Source: a virus
DNA: 24,813 bases
IMG/VR virus record: IMGVR_UViG_3300050175_000044
Location: 1 to 24,813 of that record
Reading direction: 5' to 3' (one strand)
Shown one piece after another: positions 4,704 through 20,964 of the stretch (positions are counted from its first letter, which is position 1; each line of letters opens with the position of its first letter). The position numbers and the translations under genes are program-made. The notes beneath the pieces were generated by a model. It had not been told where the DNA came from, did no database searches, and saw only the letters and a program-made list of their open reading frames with translations.

Positions 4704-5262
4704 TATTACCTTCCGTGGTAACTTCAATAACGGGCTTCACTGCCACTGGTGGAGTATCGAATTCAAGAATCACTTTCGGCGCACGCTCGCGCTTGTTGTC
4801 CCTGTCCATGTTCTTGATATTCACAAGCATCTGCAAGGCCTTGAGTTTGTCATGTCCTTTTAAGGTGTAGTTAATCCCATCCATGCCTTCCGTGATCTGA
4901 TATTCCTTAATCGCTGCCCTGGCATGGGCTGGGATTTCAGTCAGATTCTTCGGCACACCGTCAGGATGAAAAGCATCCAGGGGGTCAAAAAAAGCAGTTG
5001 CGGCAATCTCAGCCAGGATACGTTCCTCACGAATATCCAGTTTTTTTCGTAGTTGCATCCGGTAGAATTCAACGCGCTCGACAATTCTCTCCTGGCCGGA
5101 CAATTTTAAGGCTTCCCGGCGCATATTCGGATCGGTGCCTAATTCTCGGTAGCTCGCGCCCTTCCAGGCCTTGAGCAAATCGTTTTCCAGGGCCAGGAGG
5201 CGGCAAAATGTTTCCTCCTGGTCAGTAACGGTATATTCAAATTCGATTAATTCAGAATCCAT
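4684..5262 (-). CDS. terS: Terminase small subunit (DNA recognition)
   Basis: This 192-aa protein is predicted to bind the pac/cos site and hand DNA to the large subunit. Residues 10-60 look like the degenerate helix-turn-helix of this class (TDQEETFCRLLAL...RREALKLSG), followed by helices with AEIAATAFFDPLDAF (about 84-98). A C-terminal KLKALQMLVNIKNM segment resembles the DKLKALELLGKHLGM block of Terminase_2-type small subunits. It directly precedes terL and overlaps it. Its start lies inside the end of the upstream wHTH gene (16-nt overlap). Confidence 0.85.
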   Translation of the reverse strand: MDSELIEFEYTVTDQEETFCRLLALENDLLKAWKGASYRELGTDPNMRREALKLSGQERIVERVEFYRMQLRKKLDIREERILAEIAATAFFDPLDAFHPDGVPKNLTEIPAHARAAIKEYQITEGMDGINYTLKGHDKLKALQMLVNIKNMDRDNKRERAPKVILEFDTPPVAVKPVIEVTTEGNNGSDPT

Positions 5263-5525
5263 TCCTGGCCTGCTTGGGTAGTGGCAATCGTCATGACCTT
5301 GAGCCGGTTGTTTGCTGTCATCTGGTTGACATCCAACAAGCCCATATCTTTAAGCTCTCGTACAATTTTGAGCGTAATTTCTTTATTCAGACGTAAGCGG
5401 CGATAGATATCGCGCACCGTAACAGGCCTGTCCTGGCCATGCTCATAACGTGCAACGGCTTCCAGGATAGCAACCTGCAAAGGATTTAATGATAGGGGAA
5501 TTGTAAGCGCTGACGCTTCCTGCAT
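5247..5525 (-). CDS. Winged-helix DNA-binding protein heading the head operon
   Basis: This 92-aa protein has a winged-helix/MarR-like pattern across most of its length: LNPLQVAILEAVARYE (helix 1), VTVRDIYRRLRLNKEITLKIVRELKDMGLL (turn and recognition helix), then a wing ending TTQAGQEWI. It is the first gene of the terminase operon and overlaps terS. It may regulate the late operon through the direct repeats just upstream, or act as a terminase accessory; both are inference. The ribosome site before this ATG is weak (CCGGAACCG), so an internal start is possible. Confidence 0.65.
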   Translation of the reverse strand: MQEASALTIPLSLNPLQVAILEAVARYEHGQDRPVTVRDIYRRLRLNKEITLKIVRELKDMGLLDVNQMTANNRLKVMTIATTQAGQEWILN

Positions 5526-5585: not shown

Positions 5586-5623
5586 GATTGTCAACCTTAT
5601 CTGCTAAGATTGTCAACCTTATC
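5586..5623. promoter_or_regulatory. Two 16-bp direct repeats, 22 bp apart (late operon control)
   Basis: GATTGTCAACCTTATC occurs exactly at 5586-5601 and again at 5608-5623. On the minus strand each copy contains a perfect -35 word, TTGACA, facing the terminase operon. No good -10 lies 16-18 bp downstream of either copy, so an activator-dependent promoter, or a repressor covering it, is plausible. The 22-bp phase places both copies on the same face of the helix. Confidence 0.6.
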
Positions 5624-5634
5624 GAATTTTAACC

Positions 5635-5683
5635 AGGAGGTGTGCCATGACGATGTAAATTACATAGGAGTAAATCGTCATGG
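5635..5683 (+). promoter_or_regulatory. Leader peptide MTM* and start-codon-sequestering hairpin
   Basis: A perfect AGGAGG (5635-5640) precedes ATG-ACG-ATG-TAA (5647-5658), a three-codon reading frame. CCATGACGAT (5645-5654) is exactly complementary to ATCGTCATGG (5674-5683), which contains the start codon (5680-5682) of the next gene. The loop holds that gene's own ribosome site, TAGGAG, and an inner near-palindrome, ATGTAAATTACAT. In the mRNA the true start would be paired unless ribosomes on the leader open the stem. This looks like translational coupling or attenuation. Confidence 0.6.
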
Positions 5684-5862
5684 CCCGTGGAAAAGATGGC
5701 GGCGCGCCGAAAGGTGGCAAGAAAAACCGCAAACACGGACGCAACAAAAAATGGTGTACATTGTATGAAAAGCTGGGAACACGGCAAAAGAATAAAGCCA
5801 AACGCCTAGCTCGCCATTTACTGCGTCATCCCTTCGATAAACAAGCGCGTAAAGCGCAATAA
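5680..5862 (+). CDS. Small, very basic phage protein
   Basis: This 60-aa protein has about one third Lys/Arg: MARGKDGGAPKGGKKNRKHG at the start, then GRNKKWC, GTRQKNKAKRLARHL and HPFDKQA. Small proteins of this pattern (KNRKxGRN...C...NKxxRLxRHL) recur in tailed phages; their function is not established, and nucleic-acid binding is likely from the charge. It is alone on the plus strand between two leftward operons. It has a leader peptide and hairpin in front (5635-5683) and a strong terminator 3 nt behind, so it is an independent transcription unit. Confidence 0.8.
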   Translation: MARGKDGGAPKGGKKNRKHGRNKKWCTLYEKLGTRQKNKAKRLARHLLRHPFDKQARKAQ

Positions 5863-5865
5863 ACC

Positions 5866-5892
5866 AAGGCCCGCTATTTGCGGGCCTTTTTC
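5866..5892. terminator. Intrinsic terminator between convergent genes
   Basis: AAGGCCCGC (5866-5874) pairs perfectly with GCGGGCCTT (5880-5888) across TATTT. The stem is followed by a T-run on the plus strand, so it ends the 5680 transcript. The last codons of the leftward gene ending at 5874 lie inside the same stem. On that strand the downstream tract is weaker (GGTTTATT). Confidence 0.85.
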
Positions 5893-12931: not shown

Positions 12932-13302
12932 ACTTTGCCGTCATGTTTACGAAAAATTTTTTCATCATCGTTTTCTAACACTTTATCCATGAAAACCTGA
13001 AAATTATGGTCAACCCTTTCCAAGTATCGTTTCTGCAATCCAGCCATCCTGCTCAATTCTTCACCATCAGCAGTTACAGAATAGGCTATTGGTAACAATA
13101 TCTCATGCAGTCTGGCAGATAGCGCACCGATTATTGCAGCTCCATCCCGCATTTCATTCTTTGATCCTTCAAACTTAATCCCTGGTTCACCAGTATCTTC
13201 ATCATCATGGATTACATAACCCAACTTGCCTAACACCATAAAAAAAAGCACTCGGCCTGTTTCGTTTAATTCTTCTTCACGTTCAGTTAATTTATTTGTC
13301 AT
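12928..13302 (-). CDS. Hypothetical early protein
   Basis: This 124-aa acidic, helical protein (MTNKLTEREEELNETGRVLF, IIGALSARLHEILLPIAY) has no family I recognise. Its start carries the exact shared word GAGGTTGAGACCATG on the minus strand (13300-13314), linking it to the accessory operon's translational signal although it is leftward. The longer frame to 13320 would start in that word's upstream sequence and is rejected. It is coupled to the downstream YkgJ-type gene. Confidence 0.7.
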   Translation of the reverse strand: MTNKLTEREEELNETGRVLFFMVLGKLGYVIHDDEDTGEPGIKFEGSKNEMRDGAAIIGALSARLHEILLPIAYSVTADGEELSRMAGLQKRYLERVDHNFQVFMDKVLENDDEKIFRKHDGKV

Positions 13303-13314
13303 GGTCTCAACCTC

Positions 13315-19653: not shown

Positions 19654-20952
19654 CTACTTAACTCGTACCAGGGCCGGGGCTGGTGGGCGATCTGCGTATT
19701 TAAGCATGGTATTCACTACCCGTTCACTTGCGATTTTCAGGTTATCCTCGGCAAGTTCACTGACAGCCGCCGCAACCGCATAATTAATATATTTGTCAGT
19801 CACGGATTGACTTGGCACGGTATGATTCATCAGGATTTTAATTGTGCGTTCATCAATACCCAGGCCGCTAGCAAAGCTGGCAAACGTGCGGCGTAAGTCA
19901 TGGAAGATAATGCGATACCCAAATTGTTTTTCCAGGGCATTCATAACGGATCGGCCTTCACTGCTAATGCCAACAAAAACATGGCCCTTTTTGCCACTGT
20001 CATTCCGGCGCAATAATAATGTCCTGGCAATGTATTCCGGCAAAGGCAATTCAACTGTTTTACTATTCTTGGTATTATCCAAACGGAAATAACCACTTTT
20101 GAAATCAATCTTGTCCCAGGTTAGTTTTTTGCGCAGCTCGCCAGACCGGCAACCTGTGAATAACAGGAACAAAGCATATTCCCGATCTATGGGATTCACT
20201 AAACCATCCAGGACATTGAATAATTGCGCTAAGTCTTTTGGCATGAGCGCATTACCGCGCACCTTGTAACCTGTCCATAGACCTTCATCCCGCAATCGCT
20301 TTGCCGGGTTGTCGGTAAACAAGCGTTCACTGCCAAAACGATACCGGCGCGCAAAAGTAAAATATGCCTGCAAATGTCTTAACGCTGTTGTGATTTTTTT
20401 GCCCTGTTCTGTAATGGCATCCAGGATCACTTGCTCTGTGATATCCGCGAAAGGCCGATCCATGTAATCCTTAAAACAGCGCGGGACATGAGAGCGATAA
20501 CAATAAGCGGATGATTCTTTTAATTCGACACTCTGTTCCTTGAAATGAATATAATCCTCAATGACCTTCCGCAAAGTGAGATTGGCAATCCGCTTATCCC
20601 GGTCATTGTACTTTTGAAATTCACCCGTGCGCGGGCCTTTGCTTTTATGCTCGGCAGGGTTTTTCCCTTCTTTCAACTGGGTCTTGATTCGCTTGGCTGC
20701 CTTGCGCCCTTCCGTTACCGTCATTAGCCGGTTGCCATGGGTATTCCGGTAATAGCCACCTTCAACCATGAACCGGCGCGTGCGACCTTCAAAGCGACCT
20801 ACATGCATAAAGGTCACGGTATTCTTTTTGGTTATCTGCACGCCAAAGCCAGTTTGCTCCGTGTCGCGCAAATAAAGTACACCGTCTTCTGGCGGCTCAA
20901 ATTTGTCCAAAAACTCGCTAGTAATGTGAACGTGTAAAGTGCTGCTACTCAT
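19654..20952 (-). CDS. int: Tyrosine-type phage integrase
   Basis: This 432-aa protein has an N-terminal arm-binding/DUF4102-like region (1-100), a core-binding SAM-like domain (about 125-225) and a catalytic domain with R269 (FTGCRSGELR), K298 (NTKNSK), H351 and R354 (HDLRRTFAS), H377 (MNHTV) and Tyr nucleophile Y388 (DKYINY). All six expected residues are present, so it should be active. It joins attP to a host attB. The start at 20952 is chosen because the shared word (GAGGTTGAGGCCATG, 20950-20964) carries its ribosome site. The tail (ADRPPAPALVRVK) is short. Confidence 0.95.
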   Translation of the reverse strand: MSSSTLHVHITSEFLDKFEPPEDGVLYLRDTEQTGFGVQITKKNTVTFMHVGRFEGRTRRFMVEGGYYRNTHGNRLMTVTEGRKAAKRIKTQLKEGKNPAEHKSKGPRTGEFQKYNDRDKRIANLTLRKVIEDYIHFKEQSVELKESSAYCYRSHVPRCFKDYMDRPFADITEQVILDAITEQGKKITTALRHLQAYFTFARRYRFGSERLFTDNPAKRLRDEGLWTGYKVRGNALMPKDLAQLFNVLDGLVNPIDREYALFLLFTGCRSGELRKKLTWDKIDFKSGYFRLDNTKNSKTVELPLPEYIARTLLLRRNDSGKKGHVFVGISSEGRSVMNALEKQFGYRIIFHDLRRTFASFASGLGIDERTIKILMNHTVPSQSVTDKYINYAVAAAVSELAEDNLKIASERVVNTMLKYADRPPAPALVRVK

Positions 20953-20964
20953 GGCCTCAACCTC

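Follow-up and report, generated by a model that had tools for sequence, protein, structure and literature searches.

The window is the whole of IMG/VR virus record IMGVR_UViG_3300050175_000044, 24,813 bases, and its genes include a terminase, a head-tail adaptor, a primase/helicase-like gene and an integrase. Within it, the gene for a strongly basic protein of 60 amino acids stands alone on the plus strand, flanked by blocks of minus-strand genes, and is probably transcribed as a one-gene unit, given the terminator-like hairpin right behind it. The start of this gene is preceded by a compact module comprising a very short open reading frame (mini-ORF), two ribosome sites (SD1 and SD2) and a stem:

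5635 to 5640, plus strand: SD1, AGGAGG, which serves the mini-ORF and lies 6 nt 5' of its ATG, outside the stem; read from the sequence and kept in relatives
5644 to 5654, plus strand: 5' stem arm GCCATGACGAT, with the mini-ORF AUG within it; from the fold and covariation
5647 to 5658, plus strand: mini-ORF ATG ACG ATG TAA (MTM-stop); read from the sequence
5655 to 5673, plus strand: 19-nt loop housing the mini-ORF stop and SD2; from sequence and fold
5666 to 5670, plus strand: SD2, AGGAG, which serves the 60-aa gene from within the loop; its probability of being unpaired, P(unpaired), is 0.79
5674 to 5684, plus strand: 3' stem arm ATCGTCATGGC, with the gene AUG (5680-5682) within it; from the fold
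5680 to 5862, plus strand: gene of the 60-aa strongly basic protein, KGGKKNRKHGRN family, starting ATG GCC
5866 to 5888, plus strand: terminator-like hairpin with a T tract behind it, directly 3' of the 60-aa gene

The arms GCCATGACGAT and ATCGTCATGGC are perfectly complementary over 11 bp, one more than a sequence-only reading of the site had counted, and the stem covers both the mini-ORF AUG (AUG1) and the gene AUG (AUG2). That reading was otherwise right about the layout: AGGAGG serves MTM-stop, the gene's ATG at 5680 is locked in a perfect stem with the mini-ORF, and the gene's own ribosome site sits in the loop. Seven bases separate the mini-ORF stop from SD2, and nine separate SD2 from the gene ATG. 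Upstream of the module, a direct repeat, GATTGTCAACCTTATC, occurs at 5586-5601 and 5608-5623, 22 bp apart, adjoining a divergent gene (5247-5525) that weakly resembles a phage transcriptional regulator; the repeat is absent from L002, the nearest relative of the window, and is a possible operator.

The segment 5636-5690 folds at -19.5 kcal/mol (z -3.1), and one of 200 shuffles did equally well. The 11-bp stem is the only perfect inverted repeat in the window with arms of at least 11 and a loop of at most 30, a class of which Markov controls contain a mean of 0.4 per window, so that the stem by itself is only mildly surprising. What lifts the site above chance is that the stem sits exactly on both AUGs and that it is conserved. 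The gene AUG has a P(unpaired) of 0.005, compared with a median of 0.49 for the 37 other predicted starts in the window. In Rfam the hairpin had no match at E values of 1 or below, and the sub-threshold matches lay only near the terminator.

A separate, near-identical box, GAGGTTGAGACCATG, is found at nine gene starts of the window, where 0.04 matches are expected by chance:

9805, 10221, 10765, 11354, 11768, 12397 and 22168, plus strand: GAGGTTGAGACCATG box
13300-13314 and 20950-20964, minus strand: GAGGTTGAGACCATG box

This box spans the ribosome site and the ATG, could form a tiny GGU-UGAG-ACC hairpin and seems to be a shared site of translational control; it is absent from the 253 loci retrieved.

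The 60-aa protein has weak similarity to DUF7022/phrog_16554, families of no known function, and no relative in the PDB by sequence or by fold. Its model combines a flexible basic N-terminus (KGGKKNRKHGRN), predicted at low confidence, with three predicted helices; RNA binding would be a guess from its composition. Nearly all proteins encoded behind such modules likewise look small and basic, or zinc-finger-like. Phage tRNA genes lie within 1 kb of 13 of 31 modules and of none of 106 chance-hit loci (Fisher p 4e-10), an excess that larger genomes may explain in part, as the two sets were unmatched in phage genome size. All 43 tRNAs near modules are co-oriented. In L037/L211, L134, L093, L209, L210, L149, L159, L189, L198 and others the gene belongs to, or adjoins, a cluster of phage tRNA genes in the same orientation, and some of the small basic genes directly abut a tRNA; the window itself has no tRNA gene.

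Twelve close family members, the window included, were gathered by protein similarity and belong to two unrelated protein families. In all 12, SD1 and ATGAC are followed by a stop in frame, and the leader pairs with the gene start; the outcome that would have refuted the sequence-only reading, related phages lacking the complementarity, is thereby contradicted. The in-frame stop before the gene, present in 12 of 12, compares with a mean of 0.43 in shuffles (joint 2.5e-5). The first-family relatives are divergent from the window protein, and upstream of each close one stand, in order, a ribosome site, ATGAC, an early stop, a second ribosome site, GTC (once CTC) and the gene ATG; their leaders read MTK, MT, MTTR, MTCS, MTLN, MTLS and MTIFM. 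L002 differs from the window within the pairing by a single compensatory swap of G-C to A-U, which is synonymous in the Thr codon of the leader. In the second family (WWDIVFHRRP type), found by protein search only, all four close members carry the module, among them L209 as a new case.

More distant relatives vary the theme. In the WWDIVFHRRP family, the start in L226 and L229 (and similarly in L221, L223 and L225) is buried by the end of an upstream frame: in L221, L223, L225, L226, L228 and L229 it pairs, near 2840-2890, with the upstream stop region (GACATAGG/CCTATGTC type), and the next gene downstream is an ORF of 950-985 aa. In L219 of the same family it is the end of an MRM mini-ORF that pairs with the gene start. 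First-family relatives beginning MPPHKGGKKNRK have a leader of 9-10 codons and two hairpins, one of them over SD2. Leaders of 9-10 codons (MRSERDLPER type) occur in the distant L012, L013, L014, L016 and L017, where one hairpin loop contains the leader stop and another hairpin, for example GGGAGGTgaaACCTCCC, covers SD2, possibly an attenuator-like variant. The mini-ORF is missing from some distant family members, e.g. L213-L217; among cultured phages, the leader is likewise absent from T5, S13 and My1, which encode distant relatives of the C-terminal part of the 60-aa protein, and from Gordonia, Curtobacterium and Microbacterium phages that encode distant relatives of the L039 protein.

A scan of DNA with a pattern for the layout returned 60 loci, about 19 of them with the full module; in most of the others the first frame runs on without an early stop. 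In-frame and alternative-stem scans gave further modules, two of which build the same layout on another stem, ATGTC/GACAT, and an out-of-frame-stop pattern, a rough control, gave 67 matches that were mostly noise. The resulting set comprises 31 modules from about 30 uncultured phages; most of the modules came from a search pattern that itself prescribes part of the stem. The layout is present in 29 of 32 phage records and, overlapping or unrelated matches aside, occurs once per record; in none of the 24 records tested do the two protein families occur together. Genome contigs scanned by protein contained no relatives, and the same contigs scanned by pattern gave two matches. One is a chance match inside an apparent coding sequence (IstB-like by eye); the other, L207 575-605 (minus strand) in a Parvibaculum MAG, combines MTL-stop and 8-bp pairing in front of an acetolactate synthase-like gene; it is the sole cellular case and probably chance as well.

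The leaders themselves are free in sequence beyond Thr. They encode MT followed by zero to four residues and a stop in 29 modules and MS in two more, so their length runs from 2 to 6 codons; the residue after MT can be M, K, T, L, N, R, S, D, C, V, I, W or H. All three relative frames of leader and gene occur, and the AUG1-AUG2 distances, 24 to 44 nt, fall in all three frames, which rules out readthrough or frameshifting from leader to gene. Thr is almost fixed, because ATGAC must pair with GTCAT. The gap between leader stop and AUG2 stays within 12-27 nt in all modules.

This freedom bears on the proposal of the sequence-only reading that expression would respond to methionine/threonine supply or a stalling drug, as in classic translational attenuators. 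The erm/cat attenuators combine a leader ORF with a hairpin over the gene start, as the module does in outline, and they need a stalling peptide and an inducer; shortage of Met or Thr, or a drug, would in such a scheme stall the leader ribosome and expose the start. A leader that stalls or senses codons would conserve the sensed codon, whereas here codon 3, length and frame all vary, two modules have MS, and the stalling peptides that are known are longer than 2-6 residues. Attenuators also use alternative, mutually exclusive hairpins; the folds of ATGAC modules contain one main stem each and no such alternatives. Because the residues, length and frame of the leader are free, a stalling peptide or a Met/Thr sensor is extremely unlikely, and the module resembles a coupling cistron more than an attenuator.

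The pairing itself is conserved beyond what the searches imposed. Inner pairs left free by the search patterns are Watson-Crick in 59 cases against 38.7 when partners are swapped (p = 0.0001, 29 modules), and for the 12 protein-found loci alone, inner plus outer pairs, the figures are 42 and 31.6 (p = 0.009); across the 31 modules, a modest sample, the covariation score is 0.221 against 0.117 in shuffles (0 of 500 reaching it) and at most 0.107 when the arms are slid, although these p-values ignore shared ancestry. A palindrome acting at the level of DNA, as a repressor operator would, or plain chance might seem sufficient, as CATG is its own complement, so that two starts with a C before them automatically share 4 bp of pairing, and as one 11-bp repeat is not rare in a window of this size. 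We regard this as very unlikely, given that the pairing extends and covaries past CATG, that the stems include G-U pairs, that the AUG-to-AUG distance ranges over 24-44 nt and that the unit also carries SD1, a stop and SD2. Similarly, the strong SD1 and the ORF of 2-6 codons recall the two-codon bar minigenes of phage lambda, which act in trans through tRNA sequestration. The bar genes share with the module a very short phage ORF with a ribosome site, and they differ in having no pairing to a gene start; action through peptidyl-tRNA drop-off would explain neither the pairing seen in the module and its covariation nor why one copy alone precedes a small gene, and its probability is close to negligible.

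We therefore consider it probable that the module is a minimal device for translational coupling, in which translation of the mini-ORF opens the stem and admits ribosomes to the gene. In the folded RNA one stem would hide both starts and leave both ribosome sites partly single-stranded. A 30S subunit would load at the strong SD1, perhaps on nascent RNA, and melt the stem to use AUG1; the ribosome would make a peptide of 2-6 residues and terminate 12-27 nt upstream of AUG2. Its presence would block re-pairing of the 5' arm and so free AUG2, whereupon the same ribosome may reinitiate or a new one may bind SD2. The peptide would have no role of its own, the mini-ORF standing in for an upstream gene. 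From the sequences and fold models we infer that the leader is translated and that coupling occurs, by reinitiation or by unfolding. One plausible rationale would be that many such genes stand alone or between tRNA genes: the mini-ORF would be needed there for want of an upstream cistron to open the hairpin. Burial of the start by the end of an upstream frame, as in L226 and L229, would be just what such a substitute for a cistron predicts.

Folding predictions for the 31 modules are consistent with this scheme. AUG1 and AUG2 both have a median P(unpaired) of 0.00, and both ribosome sites of about 0.5. When the leader is forced to be single-stranded, as under a ribosome footprint on AUG1, the median for AUG2 rises from 0.00 to 0.57, which agrees, in the model, with the earlier suggestion that a ribosome on the leader exposes the true start. 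The hairpins span -9 to -28 kcal/mol, and in the model it takes 8-26 kcal/mol to open the leader site; because the hairpins hide AUG1 too, the mini-ORF itself may be poorly used. One could argue that the hairpin merely represses the gene, or allows brief translation on nascent RNA (as for the MS2 maturation gene, which has a short window of translation before its RNA folds), with the mini-ORF as a ribosome decoy. The nearly complete burial of the gene AUG at equilibrium and the stronger ribosome site of the mini-ORF would fit. Neither the burial of AUG1 in the stem nor the stop 12-27 nt ahead of AUG2 would be needed for a decoy, however, and L226 and L229, where the end of a frame upstream buries the start, favour coupling, which makes this reading quite improbable.

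The nature of the proteins suggests another form of control. The coat protein of phage MS2 binds the hairpin at the replicase start and shuts off translation, and that hairpin, like the one in the module, includes the start codon; MS2 has no leader ORF. By analogy, the basic protein might bind its own start hairpin and repress its own translation, the mini-ORF setting a basal level. Mostly small basic or zinc-finger-like products, one module per phage record and a helical protein model with a flexible KGGKKNRKHGRN tail would all suit such an operator. The same stem core, however, precedes unrelated protein families, all of which would need to bind it, loops vary within a family, and SD1 and the in-frame stop are left unexplained. 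Operator action thus seems unlikely as an explanation of the module; autoregulation of this kind can be compatible with coupling.

The coupling principle, including its bicistronic form, is already known. Synthetic bicistronic designs place a short leader ORF with a strong ribosome site before a gene, and translation of the leader unfolds the gene start. The module has the same architecture of SD1, short ORF, SD2 and structured gene start, in a natural, phage setting. The synthetic leader is usually longer, contains SD2 and overlaps the gene start, whereas in the window the stop precedes SD2. Coupling between neighbouring genes is established for trpE-trpD, galT-galK and the coat and lysis genes of RNA phages (reviewed in PMC12548453), where translation upstream likewise opens or feeds a structure-blocked downstream start. 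In the module, such blocking of the start while the upstream frame is untranslated comes from prediction, and the upstream frame ends 12-27 nt from the downstream start, inside the range where constructs of phage fr coupled (seen at stop-to-start spacings of +23 and +35; PMC12548453). It differs from neighbour coupling in that the upstream frame has 2-6 codons and no conserved product, and in that the blocking stem pairs two start codons directly. Promotion by a short ORF is real in bacteria, as this review and the Salmonella mgtQ-mgtB system show: mgtQ, a short ORF with AGGAGG, promotes when translated a gene with a sequestered ribosome-binding site (PMC8092293). With its 8 codons, mgtQ relies on alternative stem-loop switching and requires acidic residues in its peptide (PMC8092293), whereas the module has one simple stem and no conserved peptide.

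In the open-licence literature we came across no account of so short an AUG-to-AUG form conserved in phages; an earlier one elsewhere is possible. The module offers a natural, covariation-supported case of an upstream ORF of two to six codons whose chief conserved trait is the pairing of its AUG with that of the gene. It would make a clean system for separating unfolding from reinitiation in translational coupling, as well as a small portable expression part, and it provides an entry point to small basic phage proteins of unassigned function, often encoded beside phage tRNA genes. More tentatively, the module might serve as a phage switch that senses translation, limiting production of the protein to times of ready ribosome loading, and the protein might in addition feed back on itself. 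If so, unrelated families of small proteins (KGGKKNRKHGRN, WWDIVFHRRP and zinc-finger types) would fill the same regulated slot, and each phage would carry one dedicated small basic protein, perhaps RNA- or ribosome-binding, often within its tRNA arrays.
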